Positions 3,995 through 42,288 of a DNA stretch of 53,706 nt are shown one piece after another. The position numbers and the translations under genes are program-made. A model generated the notes under the pieces. The model did not search any database. It saw nothing but the letters and a program-made list of their open reading frames with translations, and had not been told where the DNA came from. The stretch is from Candidatus Zixiibacteriota bacterium (GTDB lineage: Bacteria > Zixibacteria > MSB-5A5 > UBA10806): NCBI GenBank assembly GCA_020348065.1, contig CP070742.1:3524114-3577819 (forward strand). Reading direction: 5' to 3'. Numbering within the stretch: position 1 is the stretch's first letter; each line of letters starts with the position of its first letter.

Positions 3995-5647
3995 TTATTT
4001 AATCAGAATCATCTTCTTAGTTTCAAAACTACTTGCGCTACGAATCGTATAGAAATAAGTGCCGGAACTATAATTTTCGGCATCCCATATTAAACTATAT
4101 AATCCTGCCTGAAGTCTTCCGTCAAGTAATGTTCTTATTTTTCTTCCCAGCAGGTCGTAAACTGCCAGATTTACGTTAGCAGACTTTATTAGAAAAAACC
4201 TGATCGTAGTCGAAGCGTTAAAGGGGTTGGGGTAGTTCTGCTCAATAAAGAAATCTTGCGGCGGGTTTTTGTTTTCCGAGATAAAATCATCCCAGATTCC
4301 GGTGGGCCAGTCGCCGTTGTTGCCGCCGTAAGCGCCCATATCGGATCTGGGCCCGCCGAGCCCGAACTGGCAATCCAGAATGTTGTCGACGCTATCGGGA
4401 TGACCGGCATCGATGCAGGGGGAGTCATATTGATCACCGCAGTAGGTAGCCATGAGATGAAAATCGCAACTATCCGGGTTACGGAAAAGGGGATCAACGC
4501 TTATGTTGCCGATGCCCGGCCAAAGTGTGTCCTGTATATTACAGTAATTAATAACAGGTGTTCCGCTTTCAATAGATATTTCTTCACCGGTAGCTGAACT
4601 GTCATCCCAAAATATATTATTGAAGACGTAAGGATTTGCTTCACCATATAAATACAAACCGCCTCCGGATGAATCAGTAGAGTTTTTATAAACCACATTA
4701 TTAACAAAAGTAGGGTTAGATAAGCAAAACGATACCCCGCCCCCACCATCTTCGGCCCAGTTGCTTACAATTATATTATTTTTAATTAAGGGATTTGAAT
4801 TGATTTTACAGTAAATTCCTCCCCCACACCTCAAAGTGCTATTCCCGATAAACAAATTGTTTTCTATTAGAGGATTAGATTGCGTCCAGCAAGCAATACC
4901 GCCACCTCAGATATAAGCGTCATTGTATTGAATTATATTATTTCGAATAATGGGATTAGATTCAGAACAATAAATCCCGCCGCCAGCGGCATCAACGGAA
5001 TTCGCACTTATCGTATTATTATGGATTAGTCCATACGAATCAACAACGCAACATATCCCTCCTCCTGAGACAGCATAATTTCTATTGATGAAGTTATTTC
5101 TAATATTCGGGGAACTATGTATGCAGGAAATCCCGCCGCCCGCGTAAGCATTATTTCCATTGATGGCATTATTACTAATAATAGGGGAACTACGTATACA
5201 GTAAATCCCCCCGCCATGGGCATAACTGGAATTTTCCCTTATTATATTATAGCAGATCATTGGAGAACTACCGCTATCACAATAAACACCTCCTCCATAT
5301 TCTGCACACCCGTTTTGAATTGAAAAACCCGTAATGATAGTTGTGCTATCTTCACTATCTCCAAATGTAACCACAGACCCCGCCGAATCCCCATCAATGA
5401 CAGTCTGTGAAATATAGCTGGTATCGCCCGTAGTCAGAAATAGCGATCCCAGGACGATATTATGCCCGTTGAAATAGATGTTCTCCGCATACGTCCCCGG
5501 CTGCACCAGTACCGTGTCGCCGTCTGTGCTGGCATCGATGCCCTGCTGGATGGTGGGGTAATCGGCGGGGATGTTTATGACGGTGGAATAGGCATTAAAT
5601 GGAATAAATAAAAATAAGAATACGGACAGAATAAATATTCTAATCAT
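3995..5647 (-). pseudogene. Beta-helix T9SS surface protein interrupted by one in-frame TGA
   Basis: A paralogue of the 583-2406 gene: same signal-peptide region, the same NIPADYPTIQQGIDAS block and the same LGSLFLTTGD stretch. The frame starts at an ATG at 5647 with GGGAGGT just upstream. It is open to a TGA at 4907-4909, then continues in the same frame, without frameshift, through further GGGI beta-helix turns to a complete T9SS type A domain ending at 3995. The TGA falls immediately before a GGGI turn, so a single base change from a sense codon would explain it. Alternatives are a sequencing error or a truncated but expressed N-terminal product. A TTG at 4855 could restart the second half, but that product would lack a signal peptide. 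Confidence 0.8.
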
Positions 5648-5680
5648 TTTTACCTCCCGACAATCAATTGTGCCAATATT

Positions 5681-5709
5681 AAGATAAGCAATATGGCTAA
5701 ACGTGTCAA
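5681..5709 (-). promoter_or_regulatory. Sigma-70-type promoter for the beta-helix gene at 5647
   Basis: Minus-strand TTGACA (5704-5709) and TATCTT (5681-5686) are separated by 17 bases, about 35 bases upstream of the start codon. Confidence 0.6.
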
Positions 5710-5858
5710 TAAAATATCGATATTAAGAATCGGCGAAATTGAAAGGCGCTTATGTATAATGCATTGAACGTCAATATGATGCGAATTCTGGCCGGGCTTG
5801 GCATGTTAGGTATGTTTTACAAAAACCGATTTTTTAGCCTAGCTTTTTTTAATGATTG

Positions 5859-5887
5859 TTGACATCGGGCGATATTTAAGATAATAG
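5859..5887 (+). promoter_or_regulatory. Sigma-70-type promoter for the DUF2934 gene
   Basis: TTGACA at 5859-5864 with TAATAG at 5882-5887 gives a 17-base spacer. GATAAT at 5880 gives a shorter 15-base alternative. It lies just upstream of the start at 5914. Confidence 0.5.
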
Positions 5888-5913
5888 TTTCACATACAGG
5901 AATGGAGGCCGGT

Positions 5914-6165
5914 ATGCCAGCAAAAAAGAAAGCGGCGAAAAAAGCTGCTCCGAAGAAGAAAGTCGCCAAAAAAGCGGCAACAGCGAAGACAGTCGCAAGC
6001 GCCCCGAGGACCACACCCAAGATCGACCTTCGCACTTATATCAACGAATTAAATAGGCGCGCCTACGAGATTTTCCAGCAGAAGGGCTCGTCGCACGGTC
6101 ACGATTGGGACGACTGGTTTCAGGCGGAAAAGGATATTAAGAGGAAATACGGGATCAAGGATTAA
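5914..6165 (+). CDS. DUF2934 protein with lysine/alanine-rich histone-H1-like N-terminus
   Basis: 83 residues from the ATG at 5914. GGAGG at 5904-5908 ends five bases before this ATG, which makes it a better start than the ATG at 5902 that overlaps the ribosome binding site. The first ~30 residues are almost only K, A and P (MPAKKKAAKKAAPKKKVAKK), like bacterial histone-H1-like and AlgP-type tails that bind DNA non-specifically. The rest (IDLRTYINELNRRAYEIFQQ, then HDWDDWFQAEKDI) matches DUF2934, a small helical domain of unknown function often found with such tails. A nucleoid-associated role is inference. The gene stands alone on the plus strand between minus-strand genes. Confidence 0.8.
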   Translation: MPAKKKAAKKAAPKKKVAKKAATAKTVASAPRTTPKIDLRTYINELNRRAYEIFQQKGSSHGHDWDDWFQAEKDIKRKYGIKD

Positions 6166-6303
6166 CGGCTAACAGGAGCTAACTCCTTAACCCGGATTCT
6201 CTTGAAGCGGTCGGGCGCGTATTGTTCGGGGGTCCATCGGGATTTCCATTTACTCCCCTGACGTTTAGAAATATGGGCAAATTATCCCGCCCCGGATCAA
6301 AAA

Positions 6304-9155: not shown

Positions 9156-10385
9156 CTAGCACTCGTTGTCAAGCCCTATTCTTCTCCTCCTTCTCACCAT
9201 CGCCACCGTTCCCAGAGCCAGGAGCAGCAACCCCATAATCAGCATGCCCCACTCGGAGAGGGTGGGGATATCCTCGCTATATTTATAGGCGTATTTCAGA
9301 TCCTTGTTGGTGTCATCAACATAACTTATATGGGGCATATCCGAATTGTCGAGGTCAATCGATGTGTACTTACCTACCTCACCCGTAGTATCGACAACCT
9401 CTAAATGCCACAAACTGCCGTCATAGTAAGCATATCTTAAATCCATTTTGGTAATCGTCCAGTCGAAGTAGCTTATATGCGGTCTGTCATAGCTATCCAA
9501 TGCTATCGAGTTGTACGATCCAACATATCCAATGCTATCTATCACAGTGATCTGCCAGCTGCCATCAAAGTAAGCATAGTTCAAATCAGTGGCCCCATAA
9601 AAGCTGACATGCAATTTATCATCGCTATCGAGGGCGAGGGAAAAAGAACTGCCGACCTGGTTGACGGCAATTGTATCTATCTGCCACGAACTGCCGTTGT
9701 AGTAGGCATGCTTAAGAATGAAATTCATATAATCGTTATAGATAACGTGTGGATAATCATTGCTGTCTACTGCAATAGAGGTGCCATTTATCACGAGTTC
9801 TTCGATAACATCGGTCGTCCATGAGCTTCCATCATAGTATGCGTATTTTACGTAATCATGGCCCGATGGCATCTGAGCTTCATAGCTGATATGGATGTTA
9901 TCATTGCTATCGAGCGCTATTGAGGTATTCATGCCCACCCAACCGTATTCATCAACTCTCCACCCAAGCCACGATACCACTCTATAGCGGCATTTCAAAT
10001 CAGCGTTTCCGATATCAAAATAACTGACATAGGGTCTATCATTACTGGCAATGGCTAAAGAAACATATCCTCCGACATTGCCGAAGCTATCCGCAATCTC
10101 GATATTCCAGGATGAACCGTCATGATAGGCATATTTCAAATACTCACCTGGTGATTCCCGGCGATAGCAGATGTGCGGTTTGTTTCCGCTATCCAAACCC
10201 AAGGATGAATAGTAGCCTACCCAGCCGTCGGCATCAACAGTCTCAACAAACCATGTTCCATCGGCCATAGCTGATGTCCCGGCCAAACCGAATATCAATA
10301 ACAATAAAATTGACAGAGTCGCGATAGACCTATTTTGTACTATCCGTTTTGCCCCCGATTTTGTTTCTTTCCTTGTGATATTCAT
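9156..10385 (-). CDS. Secreted repeat protein with IPTL-CTERM sorting tail
   Basis: About 409 residues from the ATG at 10385, which has a GGGAGGAG ribosome binding site; the open frame extends 14 codons further without such a signal. After an N-terminal signal/membrane segment come about seven repeats of 45-50 residues containing S(I/L)ALDSxDxPHISY and LKYAYYDGSSW, resembling BNR/sialidase-type propeller blades without evident catalytic residues. The C-terminus is an IPTL-CTERM signal: PTLSEWGMLIMGLLLLALGT, then an Arg cluster. In known systems such tails direct processing and surface sorting by a dedicated exosortase-like machinery. Its upstream region carries the promoter-leader element shared with the S74 operon. 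Confidence 0.85.
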   Translation of the reverse strand: MNITRKETKSGAKRIVQNRSIATLSILLLLIFGLAGTSAMADGTWFVETVDADGWVGYYSSLGLDSGNKPHICYRRESPGEYLKYAYHDGSSWNIEIADSFGNVGGYVSLAIASNDRPYVSYFDIGNADLKCRYRVVSWLGWRVDEYGWVGMNTSIALDSNDNIHISYEAQMPSGHDYVKYAYYDGSSWTTDVIEELVINGTSIAVDSNDYPHVIYNDYMNFILKHAYYNGSSWQIDTIAVNQVGSSFSLALDSDDKLHVSFYGATDLNYAYFDGSWQITVIDSIGYVGSYNSIALDSYDRPHISYFDWTITKMDLRYAYYDGSLWHLEVVDTTGEVGKYTSIDLDNSDMPHISYVDDTNKDLKYAYKYSEDIPTLSEWGMLIMGLLLLALGTVAMVRRRRRIGLDNEC

Positions 10386-10500
10386 ATTATTTCTCTCCTC
10401 CCTATGGAAATTGGATTGTCTAGACAAATCGGGATTATGCCTTCCTGTTAAGCATAAGGTTTATTATACCCTTTACCCGGATACAAAGCCCGACATTCTT

Positions 10501-10663
10501 TCGTCCTTAGAATTACAAGAAATTTACATTTCAAATCATTTTCAGAAGCCGCAAATAGCGATGCATATCAGTGTGGGCTGTTCAATCGCTCAAGCGCTCT
10601 CCATGGGGAACAAATGAGCGCTTAAGATGGAGTAAAAATAAATTATTGCTATAGGAATGTCAA
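10501..10663 (-). promoter_or_regulatory. Promoter plus structured 5' leader, copy A (shared with 15090-15252)
   Basis: On the minus strand TTGACA (10658-10663) and TATTTT (10635-10640) are separated by 17 bases. Twelve bases below the -10 lies a perfect 8-bp stem, AAGCGCTC (10592-10599) with GAGCGCTT (10616-10623), around a 16-base loop, so it would sit at the very 5' end of the transcript. The next ~90 bases, and the whole block, align without gaps to 15090-15252 at roughly three-quarters identity by eye. The leader then continues to the start codon at 10385. Confidence 0.7.
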
Positions 10664-10709
10664 GCGGAATCAATAAGAATTAACTAACGGGGAAGAATTC
10701 CCGCCTTTT

Positions 10710-11306
10710 TTATTTCTGCTGAACTAAATTAGCCAAGGTAACCAGTCGTTTGGCAATCACTTCGACATTTTGGACTTTAAGCATGTTTTTATCAAAAATG
10801 GAGTGCGTAAAATTAATCCCGCCTTTCGAGAAATGAAGACCGTCAAACGGTTCTAAATCCATAATATGTTGTTGAACCTGATCTGATTTCAATATGCTTA
10901 CATCCTCTTTTAGTGCCGTTATCAAGAAGTATTTTTCATCGAATTTCTCATTGCCCGTTTGAGCCTCATATTCAAGACCCAGCTTTTTCTTAATTCGATC
11001 CATCAAATGCTCATGCCGGATGGCTGCCTTAAAGGCACACGGTGCAATCAATAGAATTGATAAAAACTCAACATTATCTGCGGCTGTTATCAGGCCGCCA
11101 CCCGGCAAGGGAAACTCGGATATAGTCACTTGCAAAGGAAAACCATCGACAGTTGCTTTGTAGATTGGATAAACGTACAAACTGGATAATGTCTTTTCAG
11201 CGGGAATATCTGTATCGTCGAAACTCGTGATCTGACCACCCCAAAAGGCTTTCATTTTTTCCAAAAGATCGTCAAATTCTTTTCTCCATGGTTTTTCAGA
11301 CAGCAT
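10710..11306 (-). CDS. Hypothetical cytoplasmic protein
   Basis: I do not recognise this gene. About 198 residues from the ATG at 11306 (GAGGA at a normal distance); an ATG at 11357 in the same frame, with a weaker AAGGG upstream, would add 17 residues. There is no signal peptide or clear membrane segment. A central stretch (KLGLEYEAQTGNEKFDEKYF) recalls the core of some DUF3137-like bacterial proteins, but I would not assign it. It stands between the copy A leader and the host side of the tRNA-Phe island. Confidence 0.6.
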   Translation of the reverse strand: MLSEKPWRKEFDDLLEKMKAFWGGQITSFDDTDIPAEKTLSSLYVYPIYKATVDGFPLQVTISEFPLPGGGLITAADNVEFLSILLIAPCAFKAAIRHEHLMDRIKKKLGLEYEAQTGNEKFDEKYFLITALKEDVSILKSDQVQQHIMDLEPFDGLHFSKGGINFTHSIFDKNMLKVQNVEVIAKRLVTLANLVQQK

Positions 11307-11533
11307 AGATTCCTCTTTTTTATAAGTATACCACCTAATACCAGTTTTATTCATCATTTTTCCCTTTTAATTTAATCATCGCATGCTACCTGAATCTAAA
11401 TTTCCTCTTTTCCAAGGCAAGCCAGCTGAAACTCCTGTTTGAATTAAATCCCACGTTGTCCAGATTTGCCGGCTCGCTTAGCACCCATCGTCTTATATTA
11501 ATTAACAGTTAATTAAATAAACAGTACCGGGAA

Positions 11534-12517
11534 TTGTGTCGTAGATATTTATCGTGGCAAATCAACAAAAAGTGCCACCCCGCAGAATCGAACTGCGGAC
11601 ACACGGATTTTCAGTCCGTTGACAAAACTGCCGTTGATAGTCAACAACTTACAAATCCAAGATACACGGACTTGCTGCAAAATTTCCTTCAAGACTGTAG
11701 ATTCAGGGGGCTGTCAGAACGAACAATCGAGGATTATGAATATTACCTGAATCGCATCTTTAAGAGATTCACTTCCGACTTCGGCAAGAATGACCTGAAA
11801 GCGTTTGTTTTGTCAGAAGTTCAGAGGGGTTTATCCCCCGCAACGGCCAATCACTATATAAGAGGAGTTAAGGCATTTTTCTCCTATCTGGTCGAAGAGG
11901 GATTGATCGACACAAATCCATTTCTAAAATTATCCCTTGTAAAGGAACCGCAGGTTCATAAACCGGTTTTAACGCCAACCCAAGTAGGTCGACTGTTAGC
12001 GATCATTCCAGAAGAGGGATATTTCAACGTCAGGGATAAAACGATGATAGCCATACTTTGGGACACGGCTATAAGGGCAAAAGAGCTTTTCGGATTGACT
12101 CTATCTGGCGTAGATATTGCAAATAATACTTTAAAAGTAAATGGTAAGGGCAATAAGGATAGAGTTGTCCCGTTTGGCCGCAAAACAAAAAAGCTAATCA
12201 TAAAATATCTTAAAATTCGACGGGATAACGGTTCACCCCTATTATTCTGCACCGATAGTGGCCAGAGAATCAATCACCACAATTTCCAAAGGACATTATA
12301 CAAGTTCGGTAAAAAGGTCGGTCTACATGTTCACCCGCACTTGATCAGGCATTCGGCGGCGACTTTCCTGGCCAAGGCTGAGATGCCAGCCACCCACCTA
12401 CAATTGCTATTAGGGCATTCAAGTCTTGCCGTAACACAACGCTATATAAATCAAATCGTAAACCAGGAGGGCCTCCAAATCAGCCATAGGCGGCTGAGTC
12501 CGGGGGATCGGATATAG
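11534..12517 (+). CDS. Tyrosine recombinase / island integrase
   Basis: The open frame of 327 residues has a SAM-like N-terminal core-binding domain (about 41-125) and a catalytic domain (about 145-310). All active-site residues are visible: R181 (TAIRAKEL), K208 (GKGNKDR), H269 and R272 (HLIRH), H295 (LGHSS) and Y304 (QRYIN). This is the XerC/D-like integrase family. The only ATG before the core domain is at 11534, outside the left repeat, so residues 12-29 are translated from the antisense tRNA-Phe fragment. A non-ATG start inside the island is possible but I see no clear ribosome binding site. It most likely catalyses insertion and excision at tRNA-Phe. Confidence 0.85.
   Translation: MCRRYLSWQINKKCHPAESNCGHTDFQSVDKTAVDSQQLTNPRYTDLLQNFLQDCRFRGLSERTIEDYEYYLNRIFKRFTSDFGKNDLKAFVLSEVQRGLSPATANHYIRGVKAFFSYLVEEGLIDTNPFLKLSLVKEPQVHKPVLTPTQVGRLLAIIPEEGYFNVRDKTMIAILWDTAIRAKELFGLTLSGVDIANNTLKVNGKGNKDRVVPFGRKTKKLIIKYLKIRRDNGSPLLFCTDSGQRINHHNFQRTLYKFGKKVGLHVHPHLIRHSAATFLAKAEMPATHLQLLLGHSSLAVTQRYINQIVNQEGLQISHRRLSPGDRI
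11567..11621. repeat. attachment-site direct repeat, displaced tRNA-Phe 3' fragment
   Basis: A 55-bp exact copy of 15348-15402: five A residues, then the acceptor 3' strand, T arm, variable loop and anticodon stem-loop of tRNA-Phe read in antisense. The sequences diverge immediately after it (acaaaa here, ctctac in the intact gene). It has no 5' half and cannot be a tRNA. Confidence 0.85.
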
Positions 12518-12539
12518 AGATTGATACATAGTCAATGAG

Positions 12540-12566
12540 AAGGGGCTGTGTGTGCCACCCCTTTTT
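12540..12566 (+). terminator. Probable intrinsic terminator of the integrase gene
   Basis: AAGGGG (12540-12545) pairs with CCCCTT (12558-12563) and is followed by a run of T, 23 bases after the integrase stop codon. Confidence 0.55.
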
Positions 12567-12671
12567 AAGCGCAGTTAATTGAACAGAATCACTCCCCGAA
12601 TCCCGTCTTTGCCACTGTCTATTATTTAATGACCGTTGGTCTGCCTATTTGTCTTTCCGATGAGGTTACAA

Positions 12672-13388
12672 TCAATCAGCTGGAGGACAATCCATGCAGT
12701 GGAAAGGAGCAGCCCCGCCCTTAAGATAGTTGACACCGTAGGTGATATCGAGTCCGTTGTAATTACAACTGCCGTTTACATCCCCGGAAACATACCAGAT
12801 ATTGCCGGGCGTGCACTCGCATTCATACAGGGGAGCTGCCCCGCCCTTGAAAAAGACTACGCCGTAGGTAATATCCAGCCCGTTGTAGTTGTCGCTGCCG
12901 TTCACGTCACCTACAGTGTAAAAACAGAGAGGGATGCGGCCTGCGCCTACCCAGAAACCTGATTCCACGATATAGCTTTGAGAAGAAGATTGACCGATTA
13001 TCGTCTGGCCGATGGTGCCATTAGCAGCATAATTAGTCGACGATATTTCACCACCGACCTCCAATTCTAGCCAGTAGTCTTCATCAAATGGCAGATTAAC
13101 ATTACTGAATATGGCGTTGAAAAGCCCTGCCGCTGTCGTACAGGGTAATGTTTCGTTCCAAAGGGAAGTTCCACCCGACGCGACGTTGTAGATTCTAAAC
13201 GTAACGTTGTAAACACTGTCTTCTACAGGATTGCCTTCCGCATCTTTCATGATCCCTTGATAGGACATGTCACGGGGGACTGATGTAATAGAATTAGGAC
13301 TATCATCCCCACTCGCTTGAACCAAGCTCCATGGTAGTGTTATAGAAATTAATACCACGGTAAACATTAAAGACTTTAAAGTACCCAT
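12672..13388 (-). CDS. Secreted protein with shared N-terminal domain and two dockerin-like repeats (island cargo)
   Basis: 238 residues from an ATG with GGAGGAA upstream, 12 bases after the S74 gene stop, so cotranscribed with it. A signal peptide is followed by a ~110-residue domain starting PRDMSYQGIMKDAEGNPV and containing FRIYN..GG..LWNET. The same motif pattern (MSYQG, GNPV, FKIY, GG..LWQ) opens the S74 protein. The C-terminal half is two dockerin-like units (DVNGSDNYNGLD and DVNGSCNYNGLD, each followed by KGGAAP) ending CMDCPPAD. Probably secreted and surface-associated; whether it contacts the S74 protein through the common domain is inference. Confidence 0.8.
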   Translation of the reverse strand: MGTLKSLMFTVVLISITLPWSLVQASGDDSPNSITSVPRDMSYQGIMKDAEGNPVEDSVYNVTFRIYNVASGGTSLWNETLPCTTAAGLFNAIFSNVNLPFDEDYWLELEVGGEISSTNYAANGTIGQTIIGQSSSQSYIVESGFWVGAGRIPLCFYTVGDVNGSDNYNGLDITYGVVFFKGGAAPLYECECTPGNIWYVSGDVNGSCNYNGLDITYGVNYLKGGAAPFHCMDCPPAD

Positions 13389-13400
13389 CCGATTCCTCCA

Positions 13401-15020
13401 CTATCTAATCAGTTGTTTTAATTCATTGATCTCGGTTTTTAGTTTCACATTTTCCTCCTTTAATTCATTTACAGCTTTTATGAGCTCTTGTATTCCTGCC
13501 AAAGCCACACCACCAGCATCAACGGTGGAAATAGTCTTCTCACTTTCTCCCAAGCTAAATGTATTGTAAAAATCCTGAGAAGTAGGACCTATATGCTTTA
13601 TGCCATCGGCTTGTGCCTTAAAATTCCATTCATGAAGAGGAAGTGACGATATTTTTTGCAGAATATCTCTACTATTTATAGGTACAAAGTTCTCTTTAAG
13701 TTCTTCGCCTGAATATGTTGACCACGAGGATGCGCCAGGATGAATCATAACTCCGGAAGAACGATTAATATCAGTATAAAATGATGCTTCGCCGGAAGCA
13801 CCAATAAGAAACTGATTATTCCTAATTGATTTTAGCTCCGTACCCGAGAAATCAGCCCATACAAAACTACCATCATGAGCTGCTATTGCCCCTGTCCCGG
13901 CTGCTAAGGAACCATCGCCGCTGGCTGTTACATAACATCCAATTGCTTGACCGCAATAACCGCTGGCAGTGTTATTTTCTCCTCCAGGAATGAGACTATA
14001 ATCACCACTTGCATCATTATTATACCCGCCGGCAATCGTGCTATGACTGGCATAAGTCTGATTATCCCTACCGCCTCCGATTGTACTTGCAACGCCATTT
14101 CCAGATATATAATTGTCCAGCCCTCCTCCAATCGTACTATAGCGCTTTAAGGCATCATTACTGTCTCCGCCGCTAACAGTTGCGGCATATCCTCGTGCGT
14201 TATTGTCGTAACCACCAGCAACTGTCGCATATACAGAATCAGCATCGTTATTTTCACCACCTCCAACTGTACTTGCGTATTCTCTGGCCCGATTTGAACT
14301 CCCACCCGATATTGTGGAAAACCTCTCTGTGGCTTTATTGTTTTCACCTCCAGAAACAGTACAATATTCTCTTGCAGCTACATTCGCCCAGCCACCGCCA
14401 ATAGTCTGAAAATTGTCGTTAGGATAACTAGCAACACCAGTGGTGCATGATACTCCGAAATTTATCATTGTATTTATGAGATTGCCAATCAAATAATTAC
14501 CTGCATTTCCCCGAACAATACCCCAATTATCATTGGTATATAGGACTGCCCCGGACGTATCCCATAATGAAACTCCACCCGCTGAATTTATCGCATAATT
14601 AGCGGTATCGGCGTGGTGAGCATATCCGGCAGAGTCCGAATATTGGGCTTTCAGTGTTCTGAATGAATATGCCGTACTAACGATTTCCACCAAGGGCATT
14701 TCATTATCAGAACCGACCTTTACTCCAAGCCATAACTCAGAATACTTACTGAGAGTATCCGGTAATCCATCAGTTGTACTTCCAAGCGAATGGGTAAAAT
14801 ATCCAAAATCCACATCGACCACGGCGCTATTCGATTGCCACAAAGGCGTGGTTCCCCCAGAATCACCGTAAATCTTAAACAGCATAGGCATAATATCATT
14901 GCTGACTGGATTCCCACTTGGATCCGTCAGGTATCCCTGATAGCTCATTTTGGAAGGGATTTGAGCCGATGCAGTTACGACAATCATAAGTACAAGTGCA
15001 AGCATGGCAAGCGATTTCAT
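13401..15020 (-). CDS. Fibre-like surface protein with peptidase S74 intramolecular chaperone domain (island cargo)
   Basis: 539 residues from an ATG preceded by AAGGAGGA. In order: signal peptide; the MSYQG..GNPV domain shared with the neighbouring dockerin protein (about 20-130); a left-handed-helix region of about ten ~14-residue repeats with VGGGENN, VSGGDSN and IGGGLDN turns, like YadA heads (about 210-370); and a C-terminal S74 domain with ELKENF, HIGPTSQDF and the STVDAGGVALAGIQELI region, ending in a coiled coil. S74 domains trimerise fibres and usually cleave themselves off. The architecture recalls phage tail fibres and trimeric adhesins. It is the first gene of the two-gene island operon. 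Confidence 0.85.
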   Translation of the reverse strand: MKSLAMLALVLMIVVTASAQIPSKMSYQGYLTDPSGNPVSNDIMPMLFKIYGDSGGTTPLWQSNSAVVDVDFGYFTHSLGSTTDGLPDTLSKYSELWLGVKVGSDNEMPLVEIVSTAYSFRTLKAQYSDSAGYAHHADTANYAINSAGGVSLWDTSGAVLYTNDNWGIVRGNAGNYLIGNLINTMINFGVSCTTGVASYPNDNFQTIGGGWANVAAREYCTVSGGENNKATERFSTISGGSSNRAREYASTVGGGENNDADSVYATVAGGYDNNARGYAATVSGGDSNDALKRYSTIGGGLDNYISGNGVASTIGGGRDNQTYASHSTIAGGYNNDASGDYSLIPGGENNTASGYCGQAIGCYVTASGDGSLAAGTGAIAAHDGSFVWADFSGTELKSIRNNQFLIGASGEASFYTDINRSSGVMIHPGASSWSTYSGEELKENFVPINSRDILQKISSLPLHEWNFKAQADGIKHIGPTSQDFYNTFSLGESEKTISTVDAGGVALAGIQELIKAVNELKEENVKLKTEINELKQLIR

Positions 15021-15089
15021 AGATCCTCCTTTAAAAGGATTGATTAAAAAATTTTTAACTGTCCAAACTATGAAAATATCACATTTCTG

Positions 15090-15252
15090 TCCTCCTTAGA
15101 ATCAAAAGAAATTTACTCTGTAATTCATCTTCAGAAGCCAAAAATAGCGATGCAATTCAATGTTAGTTGGTCAATCACCCGAACGCTCTCCAGTGTGGAG
15201 TAACGAGCGTTCAAGATGCACACAGGCTACACTTTTGTCCCGTCAATGTCAA
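15090..15252 (-). promoter_or_regulatory. Promoter plus structured 5' leader, copy B (upstream of S74 operon)
   Basis: Same geometry as 10501-10663 with a constant offset and no gaps. TTGACA at 15247-15252, a weaker -10 (TAGCCT, 15224-15229) after 17 bases, then 12 bases to a perfect 8-bp stem GAACGCTC (15181-15188) / GAGCGTTC (15205-15212) with a 16-base loop. Two base pairs differ from copy A and both remain paired. This accounts for most of the 333-base gene-free stretch between the S74 gene and tRNA-Phe; I see nothing else in 15253-15347. Confidence 0.7.
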
Positions 15253-15347: not shown

Positions 15348-15426
<79 letters not shown>

Positions 15427-39522: not shown

Positions 39523-39676
39523 GTCAGGTCGTGATCCCGACTTTCAGTCGGGAGGAGACCTGACCGCTGGCGTACGATTTTATATTCCTATATACCGTCA
39601 GGTCACGGCCTGCGGCCTACGACCTGACGGAACACAGAATGGATTCCCGATAAGAGATTTCGGGAATGACAATTCC
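39523..39676. repeat. 154-bp triple-hairpin repeat, copy 1
   Basis: Contains three perfect stem-loops in tandem. First, GGTCAGGTC (39522) with GACCTGACC (39557), enclosing CCCGACT/AGTCGGG. Second, CCGTCAGGTC (39595) with GACCTGACGG (39621). Third, ATTCCCGA (39643) with TCGGGAAT (39660). Copy 2 at 42135-42288 aligns without gaps and with about three mismatches. It fills most of the 325-base gene-free stretch 39414-39738; the flanking parts show nothing clear. Confidence 0.9.
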
Positions 39677-42134: not shown

Positions 42135-42288
42135 GTCAGGTCGTGATCCCGACTTTCAGTCGGGAGGAGACCTGACCGCTGGTATACGATTTTATGTTCC
42201 TATATACCGTCAGGTCACGGCCTGCGGCCTACGACCTGACGGAACACAGAATGGATTCCCGATAAGAGATTTCGGGAATGACAATTCC
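42135..42288. repeat. 154-bp triple-hairpin repeat, copy 2
   Basis: Gapless match to 39523-39676 (constant offset of 2612 bases). The same three stems are intact: GTCAGGTC/GACCTGAC, CCGTCAGGTC (42207) / GACCTGACGG (42233), and ATTCCCGA (42255) / TCGGGAAT (42272). The mismatches fall between stems. Confidence 0.9.

Follow-up and report, generated by a model that had tools for sequence, protein, structure and literature searches.

Judged from sequence, a group of uncultured Zixiibacteriota bacteria places one and the same short promoter, with a leader RNA predicted to begin with a hairpin, ahead of genes for secreted surface proteins of nine or more unrelated kinds, some of which are located on mobile islands. 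A single expression module thus appears to serve a changing set of surface genes.

Two copies of this element, A and B, are present in the window, that is, the whole stretch of 53,706 nt of Candidatus Zixiibacteriota bacterium contig CP070742.1 that was analyzed. A preliminary description had proposed that positions 10501-10663 and 15090-15252 align with a constant offset over about 163 bases. Indeed, the two segments form a gapless alignment with 115 of 163 identical positions (70.6%), and BLAST of copy A against copy B gave an E value of ~1e-21 over 134 nt. When copy A was slid across the whole window, the mean was 41.4 (sd 5.7) on the plus strand, and apart from 15090-15252 no place on either strand exceeded 69/163.

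Both copies and their genes are on the minus strand (Table 1). As described, each copy contains TTGACA, a 17-nt spacer and a -10 hexamer, of which that of copy B (TAGCCT) is weak. The distance between the -10 and the stem, previously given as 12 bases, is 11 nt when TATTTT (A) or TAGCCT (B) is taken as the -10. The claimed 8-bp perfect stem with a 16-nt loop and two compensated pair differences was found in both copies, with arms AAGCGCTC/GAGCGCTT in A and GAACGCTC/GAGCGTTC in B, and it grows to 11 bp once G-U pairs are allowed. The assignments of the downstream genes were also correct: copy A precedes a gene for an IPTL-CTERM protein, and copy B one for an S74 protein with a dockerin-like gene behind it.

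Table 1. Features of leader copies A and B and of the island around copy B (positions are those of the window).
Feature	Position	Strand	Basis
Copy A -35 hexamer TTGACA	10658..10663	-	sequence, pattern match
Copy A -10 TATTTT, 17-nt spacer; predicted +1 = A at 10628	10635..10640	-	
Copy A basal stem 5' arm CTTAAGCGCTC	10616..10626	-	
Copy A basal stem 3' arm GAGCGCTTGAG	10589..10599	-	
Copy A conserved post-stem box CTGATATGCATCGC	10558..10571	-	alignment of 14 copies
Copy A leader end, Shine-Dalgarno-like AAGGACGA and ATG opening 7-codon ORF MSGFVSG*	10473..10508	-	
Copy A cargo, secreted IPTL-CTERM protein, likely start ATG near 10385	9156..10427	-	Pfam PF18203
Copy B -35 hexamer TTGACA	15247..15252	-	
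Copy B -10 TAGCCT; predicted +1 = A at 15217	15224..15229	-	
Copy B basal stem 5' arm CTTGAACGCTC	15205..15215	-	
Copy B basal stem 3' arm GAGCGTTCGGG	15178..15188	-	
Copy B conserved post-stem box TTGAATTGCATCGC	15147..15160	-	alignment of 14 copies
Copy B leader end, Shine-Dalgarno AAGGAGGA and ATG TGA start-stop; true cargo start further downstream	15079..15097	-	
Copy B cargo 1, signal peptide, UspA1-like repeats, Peptidase_S74 chaperone domain	13401..15020	-	
Copy B cargo 2, dockerin-like secreted protein	12672..13388	-	sub-threshold Dockerin_1 match
Island tyrosine integrase	11534..12517	+	PF00589 E 3e-35; 57% identical relative beside copy E
attL, exact 55-bp copy of tRNA-Phe 3' half	11567..11621	.	
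attR, overlapping tRNA-Phe 15353-15426	15348..15402	.	

A leader family with a covarying, predicted 5' hairpin

A search of related genomes with a covariance model, set beforehand as a test, revealed more copies, all of them ahead of surface-protein genes. The family contains 14 copies. Six of these (A, B, E, H, I and N) are present in the window's own genome, which consists of a single 3.74-Mb contig (G000), and eight (C, D, F, G, J, K, M and P) in the genus-mate CP070813.1 (G001, Candidatus Zixiibacteriota bacterium bin119); these two genomes make up the genus-level scope of our analysis. BLAST of related genomes gave three further copies; covariance models built from five, and later thirteen, copies were then used, and a relaxed sequence pattern added to these models completed the set. 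Copy P (31.6 bits, E 0.64) was accepted on reading its sequence. In the own genome, the relaxed pattern matched six places, each of them a copy of the family, and a reversed control pattern gave none. Most pairs of copies are only 45-70% identical.

About 95 other relatives, including genomes of the same family and the same order, yielded nothing convincing, in large searches whose filters drop weak matches and which distant versions of the leader could escape. A strict pattern matched 61 stretches in 84,980 genomes, with several per genome only in CP070813.1 (four) and in one Binatia genome, whose two matches are duplicated groES-like upstream regions. Among the relaxed-pattern matches in the same order (G005, G008) are leaders resembling FMN riboswitches, as well as unrelated promoters. 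The weak covariance-model matches outside the genus (E>0.2) that were examined by eye (G036, G004) lack the stem. Comparison with Rfam gave no match at E<=5 for copies A and B, and none at E<=1 for nine further loci. As far as these searches reach, the leader family is genus-specific.

All 14 copies have a common layout: TTGACA (TTGAAA in J), a 16-18 nt spacer, a -10-like hexamer, exactly 5 nt, and a Y-R step (A-R in copy J). The pyrimidine at -1 is present in 13 copies, and the purine at the predicted +1, seven nt past the -10, in all. A stem of up to 11 bp starts about 2 nt into the predicted RNA. We infer that transcription starts at this Y-R step, in which case the hairpin would cap the 5' end of the mRNA. 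The 5' side of the hairpin has a U-rich bulge, and single-sequence folds predict a short apical helix in many copies (TCC/GGA, TTCCC/GGGAA, CCCC/GGGG). The stems of K, N and P are imperfect. A TTGATTTGCATC-like box follows the stem at a near-constant distance in most copies; K, M, N and P have only a weak box or none. The leaders are ~100-140 nt long and usually end in a strong Shine-Dalgarno sequence. In D, E, H, I, J, K and N, a AAAAAGTGGATTTNGGG-like box, possibly an UP element or activator site, lies ~20 nt before TTGACA.

The stem is maintained by compensatory changes. In a model-fitted alignment of 13 copies, which is biased towards its own structure, 91.5% of the stem cells are paired, compared with at most 50.4% when the partners are slid by 1-3 columns; the shuffle control on this alignment was only moderate, with 4/500 for pairing and 15/500 for covariation. 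When the outer eight pairs of the 14 copies were aligned by hand, 103/112 cells are paired, versus 93.6 +/- 2.3 when 3' arms are swapped between copies (0/5000), a control that does not remove the relatedness between copies. Folding z-scores of the hairpins average -2.3, with p<=0.05 in ten of the 14. These results support the proposed selection on RNA (or palindrome) structure, and of these two RNA is favored, since G-U makes up about one in four pairs (35/130 paired cells in the 13-copy alignment, 26/103 in the arm-swap alignment) and the hairpin directly follows a constant predicted start.

The same G-U pairs bear on the possibility that the element is a DNA palindrome that a transcription factor would bind at the start site. 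The position of the palindrome is fixed just downstream of the predicted start, Watson-Crick symmetry alone also beats the arm swaps (3/5000), and a AAAAAGTGGATT-like box lies upstream in about half of the copies. However, G-U pairs break the symmetry of the DNA, a loop of 14-20 nt is atypical for an operator, and the apical helix pairs too; we consider an operator improbable.

Several other kinds of elements were considered. The hairpin is not a terminator or attenuator, because the stem is followed by CGATTGAA-like sequence without a U run. A conserved leader peptide was rejected, as the reading frames are not conserved and tiny ORFs are present in A and B only. A REP-like dispersed repeat without linkage to genes was also rejected; all 14 copies are in the same orientation, ~90-230 nt ahead of the start of their cargo gene. 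A different, dispersed intergenic repeat with inverted-repeat arms GTCAGGTCGTAGGC...GACCTGAC occurs in the window at 39591-39673 and 42203-42285, with both copies ahead of minus-strand genes, and also in a stretch of the genus-mate genome (7422-7664).

The hairpin might instead be one helix of a ligand-binding, riboswitch-like RNA. The conserved single-stranded segments and the covarying helix would fit such an RNA, as would a possible second helix, AGCGAU/AUCGCU, after the stem of copies A-C. This helix is absent from the other copies, and we do not claim it because it is seen in A-C alone. The lack of an Rfam match, a terminator or Shine-Dalgarno sequestration, and a cargo of surface proteins without a metabolic pathway, make a riboswitch very unlikely.

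Cargo genes and their exchange behind the leader

Each of the 14 copies has the same orientation as the gene that follows, whose product, as judged by eye, starts with a signal-peptide-like segment. When the central parts of these proteins were compared by BLAST, they fell into nine unrelated core families, with paralogous groups D/G, E/H/I and K/P. Nine of the 14 proteins end in IPTL-CTERM (that of M just under the cut-off); the H and I proteins end in dockerin-like repeats and the G protein in Por_Secre_tail, and a dockerin-like gene follows that of B. Pfam matches comprise FG-GAP repeats, carboxypeptidase regulatory-like domains, C39-like peptidase, beta-helix, PQQ propeller, SBBP with DUF7948, DUF7901 and S74.

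The idea that the leader defines a regulon held in part: 14 copies in two species all precede genes for secreted or surface proteins, but the regulon is only partial. A leader before every IPTL-CTERM gene was not found, and most of these genes lack one; only three of the 12 IPTL-CTERM matches in the window's genome, and six of the 18 in CP070813.1, are preceded by it. Orthologous IPTL-CTERM genes in G000:1725000-1731000 and G001:3017000-3021500 have a different conserved upstream region in common (AAATTGGANAGACNATACCTT...), which suggests that other IPTL-CTERM genes use a second type of promoter, distinct from this one.

In copy C, the leader passes directly into the Shine-Dalgarno sequence and ATG of its gene. 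The ATG aligned to this start opens only a tiny ORF in A (MSGFVSG*) and B (M*), where the real gene has its own Shine-Dalgarno lower down, as if the leaders of A and B had been joined to new genes. Copies D and N occupy the same chromosomal place in the two genomes, beside divergent genes resembling pilM/pilN. Their flanks are 81.6% identical over 3.15 kb, and the match stops exactly at TTGACA; beyond it the leaders are ~49% identical and the cargo is unrelated. Copies E and F share flanking and leader DNA and have different cargo. The upstream DNA is also shared between H and I, as it is between E and F. At three tandem sites (copies C, G and P), the IPTL-CTERM reading frame ahead of the leader ends with a TGA that is part of the leader's TTGACA (positions 6132 and 7511 of G001:3716000-3735900, and a third site at copy P).

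Copy B lies inside a tRNA-Phe island of ~3.8 kb, recognized by an exact 55-bp direct repeat of the 3' part of the tRNA and a tyrosine integrase (Table 1). Copy E is located beside a second integrase, 57% identical to that of the window, which follows a tRNA 5'-half-like sequence (stretch positions 5318-6195 and 5238-5278, respectively, of G000:450500-461500) and is also near a dockerin gene with an IPTL tail. This region is probably a second island of the same family; its far att site was not found, and a 100-bp stretch of it reads N. Another relative of the window integrase, broken by two stop codons, is present at G001:C1:3346566-3347018, a decayed island remnant away from all leader copies.

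Taken together, the joins in C, A and B, the D/N and E/F pairs, the tandem stops and the integrases at B and E argue that the module stays put or travels while its cargo changes; recombination as the route of this exchange is inferred. Plain shared ancestry would mean that genes were duplicated with their upstream regions and that the leader has no special function. It could account for the paralogous cargo and for the upstream DNA common to H/I and E/F, but is scarcely probable given nine unrelated cargo families, covariation among copies this diverged, a spacing constant to the nucleotide, and cargo replaced at the orthologous D/N site.

Possible role of the leader

At the level of DNA, our analysis establishes the layout, the 14 copies, the covariation, the secreted cargo and the exchange of cargo behind the module. 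We give about an even chance to the explanation that the element is a genus-specific, portable promoter with a 5'-terminal hairpin leader that sets the expression of surface proteins, most likely by mRNA stabilization. A sigma-70-type promoter would be fused to the leader, and the RNA would open with ~2 free nt, followed by an 8-11 bp stem, usually a TTGATTTGCATC-like box, a largely open stretch and a strong Shine-Dalgarno sequence. The hairpin and the ribosome-binding site would shield the mRNA from 5'-end-dependent decay, and sorted surface proteins could in this way be made at a high or growth-regulated level. A surface gene would become part of the set once it is placed downstream of the module, in at least one instance as part of a tRNA-targeting integrase island. 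The 5' stem-loops of ompA and aprE stabilize mRNA jointly with the ribosome-binding site (PMC7509114, PMC3997798), and stabilization is placed first because the predicted anatomy is the same as that of these leaders. An RNase E/G gene is encoded. The imperfect stems of K, N and P and the leaderless majority of IPTL-CTERM genes count against this explanation, as does the post-stem box, whose conservation beyond the needs of a plain stabilizer suggests a binding partner.

The main rival, which we regard as rather unlikely, is that the leader is the target of a trans-acting regulator, either an RNA-binding protein such as CsrA or an sRNA that base-pairs with the post-stem box, that would switch translation or decay of the whole surface-gene set. 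The near-constant distance of the box from the stem in most copies would fit such a target, as would the one csrA gene per genome and the GGA present in the Shine-Dalgarno and, in ~10/14 copies, on the 3' side of the hairpin loop. Copies D, I, K and M, however, swap this GGA for GG-rich strands pairing with C-rich partners, so that structure is kept rather than the GGA motif. Moreover, the box is weak or lost in four copies, and no cognate sRNA was identified.

A broader arrangement is put forward tentatively: the leader may mark the constant 5' boundary of a site from which interchangeable surface-protein cassettes are expressed, in which promoter-hairpin and IPTL-CTERM coding ends are constant and the cargo between them is swapped by homologous recombination or brought in on tRNA-targeting integrase islands. 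If so, each incoming surface protein would immediately come under the same RNA-level control. Mobile or swapped surface genes could thus be commonly controlled on arrival, with the promoter-leader either traveling with the cargo or awaiting it, and the exchange boundary at the -35 box makes plug-in surface genes checkable from comparative genomics alone. For an uncultured phylum almost without experimental biology, the leader provides a concrete, testable RNA marking a surface-protein set.

Comparison with known systems

Hairpin leaders at 5' ends and sets of surface proteins under a common promoter are known kinds of systems. The open-licence papers searched contained no genus-specific promoter-hairpin leader that is common to nine unrelated sorted families, has its cargo exchanged at the -35 and occurs in part on integrase islands.

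PEP-CTERM genes such as Aquincola pepA are under RpoN and PrsK-PrsR control (PMC9850573). As here, one promoter type marks part of the C-terminally sorted surface proteins; however, that set has sigma-54 promoters (-24/-12) and an enhancer, whereas the element described here has a -35/-10 promoter with a 5' RNA hairpin. An RpoN-type promoter was rejected for our set, as 14 of 14 copies carry a TTGACA-like -35 and a -10-like hexamer instead of the -24/-12 GG...GC. Leaders controlled by CsrA resemble ours in having GGA near the hairpin loop and in the Shine-Dalgarno sequence, and csrA is encoded, but here GGA is not invariant and the hairpin is ~100 nt from the Shine-Dalgarno. Like other tRNA-targeting tyrosine-integrase islands, that of copy B has direct repeats of the tRNA-Phe 3' half and an integrase adjoining attL; unlike them, it is very small, and its cargo carries a host-type leader.

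Anatomical parallels are the leaders of E. coli ompA and papA and of B. subtilis aprE. As in these leaders, a hairpin is predicted within ~2 nt of the 5' end in our copies (stem at ~+3 of the predicted start), together with an unstructured stretch, a strong Shine-Dalgarno sequence, and secreted or surface cargo. In contrast to those leaders, a single leader family is present here on many unrelated genes, and it contains a conserved post-stem box.
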